A DNA stretch of 33,753 nt, from contig JANYAU010000091.1 in the NCBI GenBank assembly GCA_025361165.1, forward strand, positions 1 through 33,753, read 5' to 3'. Each line of letters opens with the position of its first letter. The stretch's first letter is position 1. A model generated the notes under the pieces. That model was not told the origin of the DNA and ran no database searches. It worked only from the letters and a program-made list of their open reading frames with translations. The position numbers and the translations under genes are program-made. Of the stretch, positions 8,001 to 31,575 are shown one piece after another. This DNA comes from Betaproteobacteria bacterium. GTDB taxonomy: Bacteria; Pseudomonadota; Gammaproteobacteria; Burkholderiales; Thiobacteraceae.

Positions 8001-8366
8001 GGGGGCGACCTGGCTTCGACGTGGGTTGCGAAGCAGTACAGTGCATACCGAGGACCAGTTACCTCGTAAATACATCTGGAAATCTATAGTTGCCAACGAC
8101 GACAACTACGCTCTAGCCGCTTAATACCGGCCGGACTCTGTACCACTTCTCCCGTGGGGTGGACCGAGCAATCGGACGCAGAGTCATATACACGGGATAG
8201 CGTTGCGCAGGGTCACTTTGCGCTGACGCGAAACTCAAGGTGACTCGCTTGCGTTAAGCCTGTTCGATTGGCGTGACGCGGGTTAAAACTAAATAATCGG
8301 ACTATGTATGTAGACCTGGCTGTAGAGGGCTTGCGGACGGGGGTTCGATCCCCCCCGCCTCCACCA
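8001..8366 (+). ncRNA. ssrA: Transfer-messenger RNA (tmRNA)
   Basis: tmRNA enters stalled ribosomes with SmpB, acts as alanyl-tRNA and then as mRNA for a degradation tag. The 5' end GGGGGCGACCTGGCTTCGAC and the 3' end GGGTTCGATCCCCCCCGCCT followed by CCACCA are the tRNA-like ends. The acceptor pairs GGGGGCG with CGCCTCC, including the G-U at the third position that identifies alanine tRNA. The tag frame at 8092-8124 encodes ANDDNYALAA and stops with TAA. This differs from the E. coli tag by Glu to Asp at the fourth residue. CCA is encoded. The length of 366 bases is normal for a one-piece tmRNA. Its 3' end is a frequent integration site, and an integrase remnant follows. Confidence 0.98.
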
Positions 8367-26008: not shown

Positions 26009-26431
26009 TTACGGTTTGATGTAAACGTAGCCTTCTCTCGCTTGCAACTTCGCTAATTCTGCTACACCGGACGGCACGATCTTGGCGCCCGGAATAACTG
26101 TTTTTGGATCGATCTTGCGCGACACCAAAGTATTGTTGCAGACGCGAAATTGCACACCCTTTGCCATCAGTTCCTCCTCCGCGATGTTGTAAGGGTTGCC
26201 GTTTTTGTCGGCAGCGCCATCCAGCAGAAAATCGACACCCTTACCATGCGCCACCACGATGATCTTGGCATCCGGGTCAGCACTCATCTGGTTTTTGATG
26301 TTATTCATCGCAAGCCCTGCGACGGTACTATCATTGATGTGATACACCGTTTTTGTTTCGGCCGCCATAACGCCCACGCTCATGCCAAAAAAAACCATGG
26401 CGCCTACGATCCATTTTGCGAATTTGGTCAT
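26009..26431 (-). CDS. DsrE-family protein, secreted form
   Basis: This 140-residue protein has a signal peptide (WIVGAMVFFGMSVGVMAA, cleavage near residue 24) and one DsrE/F-like domain from residue 27. Visible blocks are KTVYHINDSTVAGLAMNNIK, IIVVAHGKGVDFLLDGA, the single conserved cysteine Cys98 in FRVCNNTLVSRKID and the ending LQAREGYVYIKP. DsrE-like folds handle sulfur as persulfide carriers in some systems, but exported single-Cys members like this are of unknown function. AGGAGA precedes the ATG. It is the second gene of a tandem pair: about 102 of 114 residues match the upstream paralogue by eye, while the N-terminal targeting sequence is unrelated. The 37-base gap suggests one transcript ending at the bidirectional terminator. 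Confidence 0.88.
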   Translation of the reverse strand: MTKFAKWIVGAMVFFGMSVGVMAAETKTVYHINDSTVAGLAMNNIKNQMSADPDAKIIVVAHGKGVDFLLDGAADKNGNPYNIAEEELMAKGVQFRVCNNTLVSRKIDPKTVIPGAKIVPSGVAELAKLQAREGYVYIKP

Positions 26432-26468
26432 TGCTGTCTCCTTATTTTAGATAAATTATGAAAGCCGA

Positions 26469-26927
26469 TTACGGTTTAATATAAACATAACCTTCGCTGC
26501 TTTGGAGCTTAGCCAGCTCTGCCACACCGGAGGGCACAATCTTGGCGCCCGGCAGTACGGTCTTCGGGTCAATCTTGCGACTAACTAAGGTGTTGTTGCA
26601 GACACGAAAATCCACGCCCTTCGCCATCAACTCTTCGACTGCAATATTGTAGGGATTGCCGTTTTTATCCACTGCACCATCCAGCATAAAATCAACCCCT
26701 TTTCCATGCGCCACGACGGTAATCTTGCCAGTTGGATCCGCGCTGAGTTGGTTTTTAATGTTATTCATCGCCACCCCCGCTACGGTACTATCATTGATGT
26801 GATAGACCGTCTTAATCGGATCGGTTGATTTCGCGGAAGGGCCCTCTGTTGTCGTGGCACAGCCACCCATACCGATAAGACCCGCTAATACGCTCACGAA
26901 CGCGAGTCGTTTTATGCTTGCTAACAT
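26469..26927 (-). CDS. DsrE-family protein, predicted lipoprotein form
   Basis: This 152-residue paralogue of the preceding entry has a lipoprotein signal: MLASIKRLAFVSVLAGLIGM ending at GGC, with Cys23 as the likely lipidated residue. The residue at -3 is Met, so the lipobox is imperfect. A short linker (ATTTEGPSAKSTDPI) leads into the DsrE domain from residue 39, with the conserved cysteine at 110. The domain is almost identical to its neighbour, so the pair arose by recent tandem duplication with replacement or divergence of the export signal. AAAAGGAGA lies upstream of the ATG. Membrane anchoring versus a free periplasmic copy suggests two addresses for one activity, which is inference. 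Confidence 0.87.
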   Translation of the reverse strand: MLASIKRLAFVSVLAGLIGMGGCATTTEGPSAKSTDPIKTVYHINDSTVAGVAMNNIKNQLSADPTGKITVVAHGKGVDFMLDGAVDKNGNPYNIAVEELMAKGVDFRVCNNTLVSRKIDPKTVLPGAKIVPSGVAELAKLQSSEGYVYIKP

Positions 26928-26959
26928 TGTATTGTCTCCTTTTATTTTCTATGAATTAT

Positions 26960-27088: not shown

Positions 27089-27364
27089 ATGAAAATCACC
27101 CAGCACCTATTGGCCTACGGCCGCGTCCAAGGCGTTTTTTTTCGCGAATCGATGTGCCACGAAGCCGCCAAGCTCAATGTCACGGGCTGGGTGCGCAACC
27201 GTCTGGATGGCGCGTTGGAGGCATTGCTTCAAGGCGAGGGGGAACAAGTTGAAGTGCTGATCGCTTGGGCACGCCGCGGACCGCAAGGAGCGTGCGTCGA
27301 GCGTTTAGAGATCAGTGAAGGCGAGGGCGAATATGCGGAATTTTCCCGATTGCCAAGCGCTTAA
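27089..27364 (+). CDS. acyP: Acylphosphatase
   Basis: This 91-residue enzyme would hydrolyse carboxyl-phosphate bonds. The signature GRVQGVFFRESM contains the phosphate-binding loop and catalytic Arg19, and GWVRNRLDG contains the catalytic Asn37. Length and fold pattern (beta-alpha-beta repeat, ending EYAEFSRLP) fit the family. There is no strong ribosome-binding site. Its stop codon overlaps the stop of the convergent cupin gene by four bases (TTAA), so the two transcripts would pair at their 3' ends. Confidence 0.94.
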   Translation: MKITQHLLAYGRVQGVFFRESMCHEAAKLNVTGWVRNRLDGALEALLQGEGEQVEVLIAWARRGPQGACVERLEISEGEGEYAEFSRLPSA

Positions 27365-27837
27365 ATAAAATGCGCTGTAAGCCGCGCCAAATAATCCGCT
27401 ACACCCGCTTCACCCTCTTGCGGCGCCCAAGCAGCACGTTCATCAACAGTAAGCGGCGCGTAGGGCCCGGCTTTCGCCTCGAAAAATACCGTGTCCGGCG
27501 CCAACGCCACTACGCTATGCAATGTTCCCGCAGGGATGTTAAGCGCTACCACTGCCCCGCCTGCGATCAATAGCGCGGTTTGGGTAACCCGCCCTATCTC
27601 ATCGAAAAACACGGCGCCCATTTTGCCGCGCACGATCACCATGGATTCGTCCTTATTGGGATCCAAATGGCGGTGCGGCGCAATGTAGGTATTGGGTTCG
27701 AGGGCATTCAACAAGCGGTGAGACAGATCAGTTTCGGTCGCATGGAAATTGAAATTTTTACGTTTGCGCGGTGCGTCTCTAGCCTGGGCTGAGATACTGT
27801 CGAGAAACGCGTGGTCGATGATTTGCGGGGTTTTCAT
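27361..27837 (-). CDS. WbuC-family cupin metalloprotein
   Basis: This 158-residue protein begins MKTPQIIDHAFLDSISAQAR. Cupin metal ligands are suggested by APHRHLDPNKDESMVIVRG (His55, His57, Glu64) and the later His in PAGTLHSVVAL. The pattern RKRKNFNFH near residue 30 and the C-terminal EAKAGPYAPLTVDERAAWAP are those of the WbuC cupin family, often found near polysaccharide genes but of unknown activity. ATG 27837 is chosen because the longer frame (to 27966) runs through the small RNA and its terminator upstream. No polysaccharide cluster is seen here. It converges with the acylphosphatase gene. Confidence 0.85.
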   Translation of the reverse strand: MKTPQIIDHAFLDSISAQARDAPRKRKNFNFHATETDLSHRLLNALEPNTYIAPHRHLDPNKDESMVIVRGKMGAVFFDEIGRVTQTALLIAGGAVVALNIPAGTLHSVVALAPDTVFFEAKAGPYAPLTVDERAAWAPQEGEAGVADYLARLTAHFI

Positions 27838-27871
27838 CCGGCCGAATATACTGCTTAGCCGAATTTTGGGC

Positions 27872-27900
27872 AAAAAAAAGCGCGGTTTAGCACCGCGCTT
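27872..27900 (-). terminator. Rho-independent terminator of the small RNA
   Basis: AAGCGCGGT / ACCGCGCTT perfect 9-bp stem (27878-27886 and 27892-27900) with a 5-base loop. On the minus strand it is followed by eight T. It also shields the cupin gene from readthrough of dnaE. Confidence 0.9.
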
Positions 27901-27966
27901 AAAATCCACCAAAGGAGGAGGATGGAGGAGACAACTCTGAACTGCTCGGAAGAGCAATCCAGACAT
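27872..27966 (-). ncRNA. Candidate small RNA with anti-Shine-Dalgarno centre
   Basis: On the minus strand a strong promoter (TTGCAC, 17 bases, GATAAT) would start an RNA of about 95 nucleotides near 27966. It has three parts. First, a 5' hairpin: TGCTC (27952-27956) pairs with GAGCA (27943-27947) around TTCC, with an outer TCTG/CAGA stem. Second, a pyrimidine-rich centre CTCCTCCATCCTCCTCC (27914-27930), followed by TTTGGTGGAT; ATCCTCC can fold on GGTGGAT and leave UCCUUU in a loop. Third, a perfect 9-bp terminator stem with eight U. The CCUCCUU motif equals the anti-Shine-Dalgarno end of 16S rRNA. It resembles, from memory, the betaproteobacterial toxic small RNA family in Rfam; I could not check this. 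Confidence 0.75.
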
Positions 27967-27970
27967 AAGT

Positions 27971-27999
27971 ATTATCTAATATTTTAATTCTCTGTGCAA
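27971..27999 (-). promoter_or_regulatory. Sigma-70 promoter of the small RNA
   Basis: Minus-strand TTGCAC (27994-27999), 17-base AT-rich spacer, GATAAT (27971-27976). The region just upstream, 28010-28090, is very AT-rich and could act as an UP element. It also holds a 9-bp inverted repeat, TTGAAATAA (28023-28031) and TTATTTCAA (28074-28082). Confidence 0.7.
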
Positions 28000-28125: not shown

Positions 28126-31100
28126 CTAAAACTGAATCGCCACGTTCTCGGTGGACAACCAACCGCGTAGTGAGCTGATGAGATTCTCATGCAATTGCAC
28201 CCGCCACGCCTCGCCCAGCGCCATTTCACAGCGCGCGTCACGGTTGTTATAACTCACCGTCACCAGACAACCGTTTGCCTCGCTGACCTGGCGGTAAGGC
28301 GCCAGCACTTCTTTCAATTTAGCGGCATTGGCCTGGCCGTTCATCATCAAGCGCATGCCCTTGGCGAATTTGGTACGCGCCCCGGATAGGTCGTACAAGG
28401 CATCGGCGGACACGCGCAGCCCGCCCGAATAATCGTCCTTACTCACCTTGCCTTCGATGATCAACAATTGGTCTTCTTGCAAGATCGCGCGATGGCGTTC
28501 GTATACTTCGTTGAAGACTGCGACTTCGATTTGCGCCTCGCCATCATCCAACGCCACGAAAGCCATTTTTCCGCGCCGCGTCATTTGCGTACGCAGCGCG
28601 TAGATAATGCCGGCGATCAGTTGTTTTTCCGGCTTGGGCACCAGCGTGGCCAGCCGCGTTTTGATAAAGCCGGCGATATCGGGGGCATACGCATCGAAGG
28701 GATGGCCGCTAAAATAGAAACCCAGGCTTTTCTTTTCAAACAGCAGCAATTCTTTTTCCGGCCAGCGTGCCACCTCGCTGAGTTGGTTGTCTTGCGCGCT
28801 CGCCTCTTCCAACACACCGAACAGGCTGGCTTGATTTACATTATTTGCGGCTTGTTCGGCGGCCTCCAGCGCGTGGCCGACCGAGGCCATGAGACTCGCG
28901 CGATGGTCGTTCACGGTATCGAAGGCACCGGCGCAGATTAGCGCCTCGATCACGCGCCGGTTGACGATGCGCTTATCGATGCGGCGGCAGAAATCGAACA
29001 AATCTTTGAACGGCCCATCCTGCTGGCGCGCATGCAATATCGAATTGATCGCCGCCTCGCCCGTGCCTTTGATCGCACCCAAGCCATAGCGGATTTGCTT
29101 CTCGTTCAAGGGCACAAAACGGTATTCGCTGTGATTGACATCCGGCGCCAACACGTCGAGTTTGTTTTCCAGACAATCGTCGTAAAGACTGAACACCTTG
29201 TCGGTATCGCCCTGATCCGCGGTCAGCGTGGCAGCCATGAATGCCGCCGGATAGTGCGCCTTCAAATACGCGGTCTGATACGCCACCAATGCATAGGCTG
29301 CGGAGTGCGACTTGTTGAAACCGTACTCGGCGAACTTCTCCATCAAATTGAACAAGTCGGTGGCAAGCTTCTGGTTCACGCCGCGTTCCACCGCGCCCTC
29401 GACGAAGATGGAACGGTGTGTCGCCATCTCTTCGGCTTTTTTCTTGCCCATCGCGCGCCGCAGCAAATCAGCGGAGCCCAGCGTATAGCCACCGAGTGTC
29501 TGCGCGATCTGCATCACCTGCTCTTGATACACGATCACGCCATAGGTCGGCTTAAGCACGGTTTCCAACTTCGGATGCATGTAATCGACGCGCGCCCGCC
29601 CATGCTTGCGGTTGATGAAGTCGTCCACCATGCCCGATTGCAGCGGGCCCGGACGGAACAGCGCCACCAAGGCGATGATGTCCTCGAAATTATCCGGCTG
29701 CAAGCGCCGGATCAAATCCTTCATGCCGCGCGATTCCAACTGGAACACGGCGGTGGTGTTGCAAGCCTTGAGCAGTTTGTAGGTAGCGGGATCGTCGAGC
29801 GGAATGCGCTCGATATTGAACTGGGTGTCGCCCTCACTGAGATTCAAGTCATGGACGAAACGCACCGCCCAGTCGATGATGGTCAGCGTGCGCAAACCCA
29901 AGAAGTCGAACTTCACCAAGCCCGCCAGCTCTACATCGTCTTTGTCGAATTGGCTCACCACCGATTCCGAGCCCTGCGCGCTGTACGTTGGACAGAAGTC
30001 GGTTATTTTCCCCGGCGCGATCAGCACGCCGCCGGCATGCATGCCGACATTGCGCGCCATGCCTTCGAGTTTCTCGCCGAGCGTCCACAGCTCGGCGACC
30101 TCTTCTTCTTTTTCGATACGTTCGACGATTTGCGGCTCTTGGATTTTCGCCTTCTCCAGCGTCATGCCAAGTTCGAAAGGAATCAACTTCGCCAATTGAT
30201 CGACGAAGTTGTAGGGCAAATCCAGTACCCGGCCCACATCGCGCACCACCGCCTTCGCCGCCATGGTGCCAAAGGTGACGATCTGCGACACCGAATCCGC
30301 GCCGTATTTCTTGCGCACATATTCGATCACGCGCTCACGCCCGTCTTGGCAAAAGTCCACGTCGAAGTCGGGCATGGACACCCGTTCCGGATTCAAGAAA
30401 CGTTCAAACAGCAAATCGTAGCGTAGCGGATCGAGGTCGGTAATGCCCAGGCAATAGGCGATCAGCGAGCCCGCACCGGAGCCGCGCCCCGGACCGACCG
30501 GCACATCGTTGTGCTTCGCCCAGTTAATAAAATCGGCGACGATCAAAAAGTAGCCGGAGAAACCCATTTGGATAATGGTCTTGGCCTCGAACAGCAAACG
30601 CGCTTCATATTCCGGCCGCTTCTGCTCGCGCACGATGAGGTCGGGGAATAACTGATCCAGCCGCAGCACCAAGCCCGCTTGCGCTTGCGCCAGCATGTAG
30701 TCGTCGAAGCTTTCCTGATTCGGCGTGGGAAATTGCGGCAGCTTGGGCTTGCCCAATTCCACCGTGAGATTGCAGCGCTTGGCGATCTCCACGCTATTGG
30801 TGAGCGCCTCCGGAATATCGGCGAACAGTTCGGCCATTTCGGCTTGGGTCTTGAAATACTGTTCTTCGGTGAAGGGATGCGGCCGGCGCGGATCGCCCAG
30901 CATATAGCCTTCGGCGATGCAAATTCGCGCCTCATGCGCCTTGAAGTCGCCGCGATCGAGAAATTGAATCGGGTGCGTCGCCACCACCGGCAAGCCCAAT
31001 TCGCTGGCTAAGCTTGTCGCTTGGCGCACATAAGACTCGGATTGTGGCGTGCCCGGCCGCTGCAACTCGACGTAGAAGCTGCCGGGAAACAAGGCCGCCC

Positions 31101-31575
31101 ACTCCTGCGCCAGCTCGCGCGCACGCTCCGTATTTTGCTGCGCCAGCACCTGGCCGATATCGCCCAGATGTGCCCCGGAAAGCGCGATCAAGCCCAGCGC
31201 GCCGGTGCCCATAAACCAGGATTTTTTCAACTCCGCGCGGCCACGGTGTTGATTCTCGCGATAAGCCCGCGAAAGCAATTCGCACAGCGTATGATAGCCT
31301 TCGCGATCGCGGCACAGGAGCAGCAAGCGTGACGCTTGATCGCGATTAATTTCATTGGTGATCCAAACATCACAGCCGATGATGGGTTTCACGCCCTGCT
31401 TGCGCGCGGATTGATAGAACTTCACCAGCGCGAAGGTATTGCCGAGATCGGTTAGCGCCAGCGCAGGCATAGCGTCCGCGTGTGCCCGTGCGACTGCATC
31501 GTCGATGCGCACAATGCCATCGACTATGGAGAATTCGGAATGCAGACGTAGATGGATAAAAGACGGGGCAGACAT
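28126..31575 (-). CDS. dnaE: DNA polymerase III alpha subunit
   Basis: DnaE is the replicative polymerase. The 1149-residue protein starts with the PHP domain (FIHLRLHSEFSIVDGIVRID), contains GPGRGSGAGSLIAYCLGITD and the catalytic palm aspartates in MPDFDVDFCQDGRERV (Asp403 and Asp405, close to E. coli 401/403). Fingers and clamp-binding regions follow (GYGFNKSHSAAYA-like EYGFNKSHSAAYALVAYQTA), then a C-terminal OB domain (IIYALRTQMTRRGKMAFVAL). Length is near the E. coli 1160. ATG 31575 is used because it gives the family start MSAPSFIHLRLHSEFS; the longer frame extends through the divergent trhP gene. The end lies 159 bases before the predicted small RNA start. Confidence 0.97.
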   Translation of the reverse strand: MSAPSFIHLRLHSEFSIVDGIVRIDDAVARAHADAMPALALTDLGNTFALVKFYQSARKQGVKPIIGCDVWITNEINRDQASRLLLLCRDREGYHTLCELLSRAYRENQHRGRAELKKSWFMGTGALGLIALSGAHLGDIGQVLAQQNTERARELAQEWAALFPGSFYVELQRPGTPQSESYVRQATSLASELGLPVVATHPIQFLDRGDFKAHEARICIAEGYMLGDPRRPHPFTEEQYFKTQAEMAELFADIPEALTNSVEIAKRCNLTVELGKPKLPQFPTPNQESFDDYMLAQAQAGLVLRLDQLFPDLIVREQKRPEYEARLLFEAKTIIQMGFSGYFLIVADFINWAKHNDVPVGPGRGSGAGSLIAYCLGITDLDPLRYDLLFERFLNPERVSMPDFDVDFCQDGRERVIEYVRKKYGADSVSQIVTFGTMAAKAVVRDVGRVLDLPYNFVDQLAKLIPFELGMTLEKAKIQEPQIVERIEKEEEVAELWTLGEKLEGMARNVGMHAGGVLIAPGKITDFCPTYSAQGSESVVSQFDKDDVELAGLVKFDFLGLRTLTIIDWAVRFVHDLNLSEGDTQFNIERIPLDDPATYKLLKACNTTAVFQLESRGMKDLIRRLQPDNFEDIIALVALFRPGPLQSGMVDDFINRKHGRARVDYMHPKLETVLKPTYGVIVYQEQVMQIAQTLGGYTLGSADLLRRAMGKKKAEEMATHRSIFVEGAVERGVNQKLATDLFNLMEKFAEYGFNKSHSAAYALVAYQTAYLKAHYPAAFMAATLTADQGDTDKVFSLYDDCLENKLDVLAPDVNHSEYRFVPLNEKQIRYGLGAIKGTGEAAINSILHARQQDGPFKDLFDFCRRIDKRIVNRRVIEALICAGAFDTVNDHRASLMASVGHALEAAEQAANNVNQASLFGVLEEASAQDNQLSEVARWPEKELLLFEKKSLGFYFSGHPFDAYAPDIAGFIKTRLATLVPKPEKQLIAGIIYALRTQMTRRGKMAFVALDDGEAQIEVAVFNEVYERHRAILQEDQLLIIEGKVSKDDYSGGLRVSADALYDLSGARTKFAKGMRLMMNGQANAAKLKEVLAPYRQVSEANGCLVTVSYNNRDARCEMALGEAWRVQLHENLISSLRGWLSTENVAIQF

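Follow-up and report, generated by a model that had tools for sequence, protein, structure and literature searches.

A small RNA gene of the RF02278 family beside dnaE, with candidate DsrE-family targets and relatives outside Burkholderiales

We analysed a 33,753-nucleotide (nt) stretch of DNA, here called the window (contig JANYAU010000091.1 of the Betaproteobacteria bacterium assembly GCA_025361165.1, order Burkholderiales), whose minus strand carries a small RNA (sRNA) gene of the family RF02278 next to dnaE. A scan with Rfam release 15 assigned positions 27933-27872 to RF02278, Betaproteobacteria toxic small RNA (E = 3.5e-10), with a full-length match (model positions 1-64) whose 61.3 bits exceed the gathering score of 50. 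The family hallmarks are present, namely the UGUCUCCUCCA 5' stretch, the hairpin with a CU-rich loop and the terminator hairpin followed by a U tract. We consider it highly probable that the element encodes a trans-acting anti-Shine-Dalgarno (anti-SD) sRNA with its own promoter, about 93 nt long and probably trimmed, which would block the ribosome-binding sites (RBSs) of selected messenger RNAs (mRNAs). As the Rfam match is independent and the RNA family is present in 9/10 genomes of the taxonomic family, it lies far beyond chance; it is a further member of an already described family and, as an RNA discovery, ordinary. An earlier reading made from the letters alone (the sequence-only reading) had suspected this family and proposed the Rfam scan, which bore the suspicion out; its description of the RNA as unannotated falls, because the scan annotates the RNA directly.

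The sequence, promoter and terminator scans and folding together delineate a complete small transcription unit on the minus strand, composed of a promoter, a 5' hairpin, a CU-rich core and an intrinsic terminator. Its parts are the following.

27994 to 27999, minus strand: -35 element TTGCAC (sequence; aligns with TTGCAC/TTGACA of relatives).
27971 to 27976, minus strand: -10 element GATAAT after a 17-nt spacer, with ATATTA ahead of GATAAT (sequence; conserved as ATATTAGAWAAT in relatives).
27964 to 27966, minus strand: predicted transcription start, placed by its spacing to the -10 element.
27936 to 27963, minus strand: 5' hairpin with a 12-base-pair (bp) stem, 27963-27952 with 27947-27936 (fold; z = -4.9 alone).
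27872 to 27933, minus strand: conserved 62-nt core, coinciding with the RF02278 match (cmscan, 61.3 bits, gathering 50).
27933 to 27934, minus strand: predicted processing site before UGUCUCC (beginning of the family match, 27933; by analogy with the RNase E cut in Bordetella S17).
27924 to 27933, minus strand: site 1, UGUCUCCUCC, a single-stranded 5' seed (CTCCTC invariant across 44 relatives).
27905 to 27926, minus strand: core hairpin UCCAUC/GGUGGA with the CU-rich loop CUCCUCCUUU, site 2 (RF02278 structure; pair counts).
27872 to 27900, minus strand: intrinsic terminator, a 9-bp GC-rich stem at 27900-27878 (GCGCGG) and a U tract ending at 27872 (terminator scan; compensatory changes).

The core sequence UGUCUCCUCCAUCCUCCUCCUUUGGUGGAUUUU thus begins at 27933. 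An own promoter, an anti-SD core and a terminator had all been claimed before and are all present on this strand. The promoter had been called strong, which is generous for a match to 8/12 consensus positions; the promoter scan reported TGCACA-16-GATAAT, overlapping TTGCAC-17-GATAAT. The 5' hairpin, previously placed at 27940-27963, is real and was drawn four bases short, its stem reaching 27936. The predicted 93-nt RNA has a fold energy of -40.4 kcal/mol (z = -7.5), and 0/200 shuffles folded equally well. In the alignment of relatives, the ATATTA-extended promoter is common to L002, L004, L013, L014, L043 and the copies at the rplM locus, and an ATATTA-GAWAAT promoter also occurs in relatives from other orders. 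Many relatives carry a 5' hairpin at the same place ahead of the core, with a differing sequence; in Burkholderia-type copies (such as L015, L016, L020 and L042) a stable 5' hairpin was not seen.

Structural support came from pair counts in an alignment of 44 sequences from Burkholderiales and other orders. Standard pairs occupy 91.9% of pair cells, and the structure outperforms slid versions of itself. Both-sided changes were found in 7/8 terminator pairs and 2/6 pairs of the core hairpin, so that covariation, a check the sequence-only reading had proposed for the terminator stem and the 5' hairpin, backs the terminator stem strongly and the core hairpin modestly; the 5' hairpin recurs in the variable form described above. 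The register that the energy fold chose for the hairpin (AUCC.CC/GG.GGAU) was rejected, being paired at 87.5% in relatives versus 94.3% for the Rfam register. The anatomy, family membership, conservation and structure of the element are established.

Processing, Hfq dependence and translational repression would be expected by analogy with studied relatives. Burkholderia cenocepacia expresses four homologues, ncS03, ncS05, ncS27 and ncS62, and expression as short RNAs with growth inhibition on overexpression has been reported for relatives (PMC5688073; PMC4603805); overexpression of ncS27 slowed growth and silencing had the opposite effect (PMC5688073). Four family members have been reported in Herbaspirillum (PMC7011215). 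Bordetella S17 is processed by RNase E, with a cut at GU/GU, binds Hfq and directly represses BP2158, a sigma-54 activator gene; its single-stranded sites have matches in or close to the RBS in 70/92 affected genes (PMC11722255). Both ncS27 and S17 repress in trans by pairing with RBSs (PMC5688073, PMC11722255). In the window, transcription from a sigma-70-type promoter would likewise yield an RNA of about 93 nt, probably trimmed to the core of about 62 nt, whose single-stranded 5' end UGUCUCCUCC and CU-rich loop may pair with purine-rich RBSs of selected mRNAs and block their translation. The adjacent DsrE-family mRNAs may be among them, through complementarity to the seed at two sites.

26933 to 26940, minus strand: candidate target site AGGAGACA at the RBS of the DsrE-family gene 26469-26927 (sequence, relatives, start-site ranking).
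26435 to 26442, minus strand: candidate target site AGGAGACA at the RBS of the DsrE-family gene 26009-26431 (sequence, relatives, start-site ranking).

These tandem paralogous DsrE-family (sulfur-carrier) genes lie 1-1.5 kb downstream of the sRNA, and AGGAGACA at their RBSs is complementary to UGUCUCCU of the 5' seed. In the 1.5 Mb analysed of the 2.8-Mb genome, 1450 starts were called, and AGGAGACA stands at the RBS of only five of them, two of which are the adjacent DsrE genes; for seed pairing these rank 9 and 31. In relatives, most DsrE starts retain the octamer while flanking bases vary, the exceptions being one DsrE gene in L002 (AGGAGGCA) and one in L004 (AGGAGATG). As a prediction from sequence, the two genes look like targets of the sRNA. 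Other GGAGACA starts in the window's own genome (L107, L226, L237, L267) precede genes that, by eye, we take to be nrdA-, sdhB-, tusA- and hdrB-like.

Several observations weigh against selective repression and this choice of targets. Since the octamer AGGAGACA includes the consensus for ribosome binding, the needs of translation alone could explain its conservation; the two DsrE genes, being paralogues, do not count as independent cases. Against 476 RBS regions, the core formed duplexes no more stable than did 20 shuffled RNAs of the same composition, which in fact paired somewhat better. A query with E. coli Hfq gave no match in 1.5 Mb of the 2.8 Mb, a half from which absence is not decidable, and the alignment contains relatives (L005, L007, L009, L010) with no recognisable promoter.

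The pairing energies bear equally on a global effect, raised by the sequence-only reading, in which the RNA would mimic the 16S ribosomal RNA, compete with it for most mRNAs and slow overall translation, hence the 'toxic' of the Rfam name. CCUCCUUU resembles the 16S tail, the family is toxic in E. coli when cloned, according to the citation of Kimelman 2012 in PMC5688073, and overexpressed ncS27 slows growth; yet pairing to the RBSs of the window's genome is not above that of shuffled RNAs, and conservation reaches past the anti-SD core into the hairpin. Seed counts gave the idea no help either. A first count of SD contexts in 476 genes did not single out the ACA trimer. Other Burkholderiales show strong enrichment of GGAGACA before ATG (2384 versus 154 for the reversed pattern), the window's taxonomic family no clear one (248 versus 116); in the latter the GGAGACA share of 0.63, compared with 0.58 for genomes lacking the RNA, amounts to no over-representation (p = 0.52). 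Burkholderiales without a match carry the motif at moderate counts, and part of the enrichment is therefore ordinary RBS usage. In members outside the order, many of them with UGACUCC, usage did not move correspondingly towards GGAGTCA (p = 0.71). We regard a global brake on translation as unlikely and prefer trans-acting repression of selected mRNAs. The control pattern (GGAGTCAN{1,8}ATG read backwards) was counted 337 times in genome G333 but no more than a few dozen times in any other, which makes an abundant repeat likely there.

The distribution of RF02278 was then followed through the order. Matches occur in 7/8 genomes of the genus, in the 9/10 of the taxonomic family mentioned above and, at E <= 1e-3, in 192/300 genomes of the order, with 0 to 9 copies per genome. 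The nearest named relatives are metagenome-assembled genomes labelled Betaproteobacteria, Burkholderiales or Hydrogenophilales, which fits the Betaproteobacteria range of the family. Four genomes of family f7 (G015, G063, G169, G251) have 7-9 matches each, and some f7 copies stand in tandem with a spacing of about 200-400 nt (L186, L188, L189). Variable copy number, with one copy lost in the window's genome, would suit a multicopy-family relic that is degenerate or unexpressed, but the sole genomic copy keeps an intact promoter, hairpins, core and terminator, and its core is identical to that of most relatives at the dnaE locus; a relic is extremely improbable. The genes flanking the sRNA are as follows.

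28126 to 31500 (upper coordinate approximate), minus strand: 3' part of dnaE, DNA polymerase III alpha (Pfam on 28126-30426; synteny).
27361 to 27840, minus strand: downstream cupin/WbuC-like gene, Pfam DUF6016 (Pfam, relatives; not always present in relatives).

The order dnaE-sRNA is kept in L001, L002, L004, L005, L007, L009, L010 and L013, and also in L043 and L137 of another family. The cupin start (27840) follows the end of the element by 32 bases on the same strand, and terminators are common in leaders, so the element might be a cis-acting leader or attenuator, a 5' untranslated region whose terminator controls the cupin gene. Locus inspection argues otherwise, since in L002, L004, L007 and L013 the element stands beside dnaE and no cupin gene lies between; the cupin gene is therefore not part of the unit, and of the conserved place between dnaE and cupin that had been proposed earlier only the dnaE side holds. 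At the rplM locus, moreover, the sRNA terminator is followed by a promoter-like TTGACA...TATAGT belonging to the gene itself (read in L008), and studied members act in trans (PMC5688073, PMC11722255). We consider a leader very unlikely and retain the trans-acting sRNA. An open reading frame at 27361-27966 that starts inside the sRNA was rejected as a mechanical extension, as cupin relatives align only from 27840. The window also contains a transfer-messenger RNA gene at 8001-8366 (RF00023, 224.8 bits).

Elsewhere in the genus and family, further copies sit upstream of the genes for ribosomal proteins L13 and S9 (rplM and rpsI; Pfam). The window's genome does have rplM (C146), with a TTGACA...TATAGT element of its own, but lacks the sRNA upstream of it; with the rplM-side copy gone, the window copy is the sole RF02278 match in the assembly (93.65% complete). 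It is probably a relocated, dnaE-side copy of an older sRNA usually found upstream of rplM-rpsI.

In the rest of the class, outside Burkholderiales, all matches to the RF02278 model were sub-threshold; the three genomes above the cut-off in the class scan (G000, G057, G098) all belong to Burkholderiales. Twenty sub-threshold loci searched against all Rfam families yielded no RF02278 call, and their sequences are plainly similar, with TGACTCCTCCATCCTCCTTTGGTGG and a GC-rich terminator. We built a new covariance model from the 44 sequences, inside and outside Burkholderiales, and it reached at least 40 bits in 77/273 class genomes outside the order. Matches of 31-39 bits outside the class or in Pseudomonas-like genomes were mostly SorX, mmgR and PrrF, which were excluded as members and mark the noise level of the model, and NmsRb scored 40-41 bits; for this reason the membership line was set at 40 bits and homology was judged by neighbourhood. 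Since PrrF, NmsR and SorX matches fell in the kinship classes to be expected, the class scanned is probably Gammaproteobacteria as GTDB defines it. rplM was nearby in 29/37 distinct inspected loci outside the order; in every case where its position was readable, it lay about 150-420 nt downstream in the same orientation, and coq7 or osmC often stood on the opposite side. The rplM neighbourhood is likewise found in many Burkholderiales families, and this shared position speaks for common descent rather than convergence on CUCC motifs. Relatives below the gathering score in other orders (L046-L072, L151, L162-L173) stand mostly upstream of rplM-rpsI; because they score below the Rfam cut-off, it fails to report them, and RF02278 looks under-sampled. 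A literature search with partial coverage returned no report of an sRNA beside rplM. These relatives well outside the namesake group, mostly by the same ribosomal-protein genes, are, together with the candidate DsrE target pair, the new part of this work.

Upstream of the core, the palindrome TGCRNYGCA occurs at 20/72 loci, where shuffles predict 0.4. These 20 loci, among L015-L053, carry it as TTGCRNYGCASMA about 22-117 nt upstream, often as the -35 element, and it agrees with the PhaR consensus YTKNTGCRNYGCANMAR published for Ralstonia eutropha (PMC12849132). The window copy does not have it. In glucose medium the B. cenocepacia homologues increase 4- to 8-fold, which would fit PhaR as a candidate regulator, and the same paper mentions an unspecified common upstream motif (PMC5688073). 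The palindrome suggests that the sRNAs bearing it may be controlled by the state of polyhydroxybutyrate storage. More tentatively, and as a possibility we would not lean on, the sRNA may be ancient, predating the beta/gamma split, fixed upstream of rplM-rpsI and PhaR-controlled in many lineages, with the window copy relocated to replace the lost rplM copy and now also controlling the adjacent DsrE genes. If so, the sRNA would link carbon-storage or growth state to the translation of selected metabolic mRNAs. The main value of the analysis lies in the wider range of a family not restricted to Betaproteobacteria and in the candidate target pair; it offers new organisms for functional study, PhaR as a candidate regulator and a small testable pair of targets beside the window's sRNA gene.

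Among known systems, the Burkholderia 'double-hairpin RNAs' ncS03, ncS05, ncS27 and ncS62 share with the window RNA the core sequence, two hairpins, CU-rich single-stranded stretches and the terminator, and ncS27 has a longer primary and a short processed form (PMC5688073), as predicted for the window RNA. The window RNA differs from these RNAs in lying by dnaE and in its stable 5' hairpin ahead of the core, and from many relatives in a promoter without the PhaR-like palindrome. Bordetella pertussis S17 has the same type of core, its own sigma-A promoter and a long form converted to about 67 nt, and adjoins coq7, like many loci found here. In contrast, S17L measures about 190 nt versus about 93 nt predicted for the window RNA, S17 has no dnaE neighbour, and Bvg control is specific to Bordetella. 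The Neisseria sRNAs NmsR/RcoF (RF02877) are tandem anti-SD sRNAs of the same order and score 40-41 bits with the new model, but they form a separate Rfam family, at most a putative homologue. SorX (RF02784), mmgR (RF00519) and PrrF (RF00444) are intergenic sRNAs that match the new model weakly, at 31-39 bits, whereas they constitute separate families with their own Rfam models, and their resemblance to the window RNA is likely convergent.
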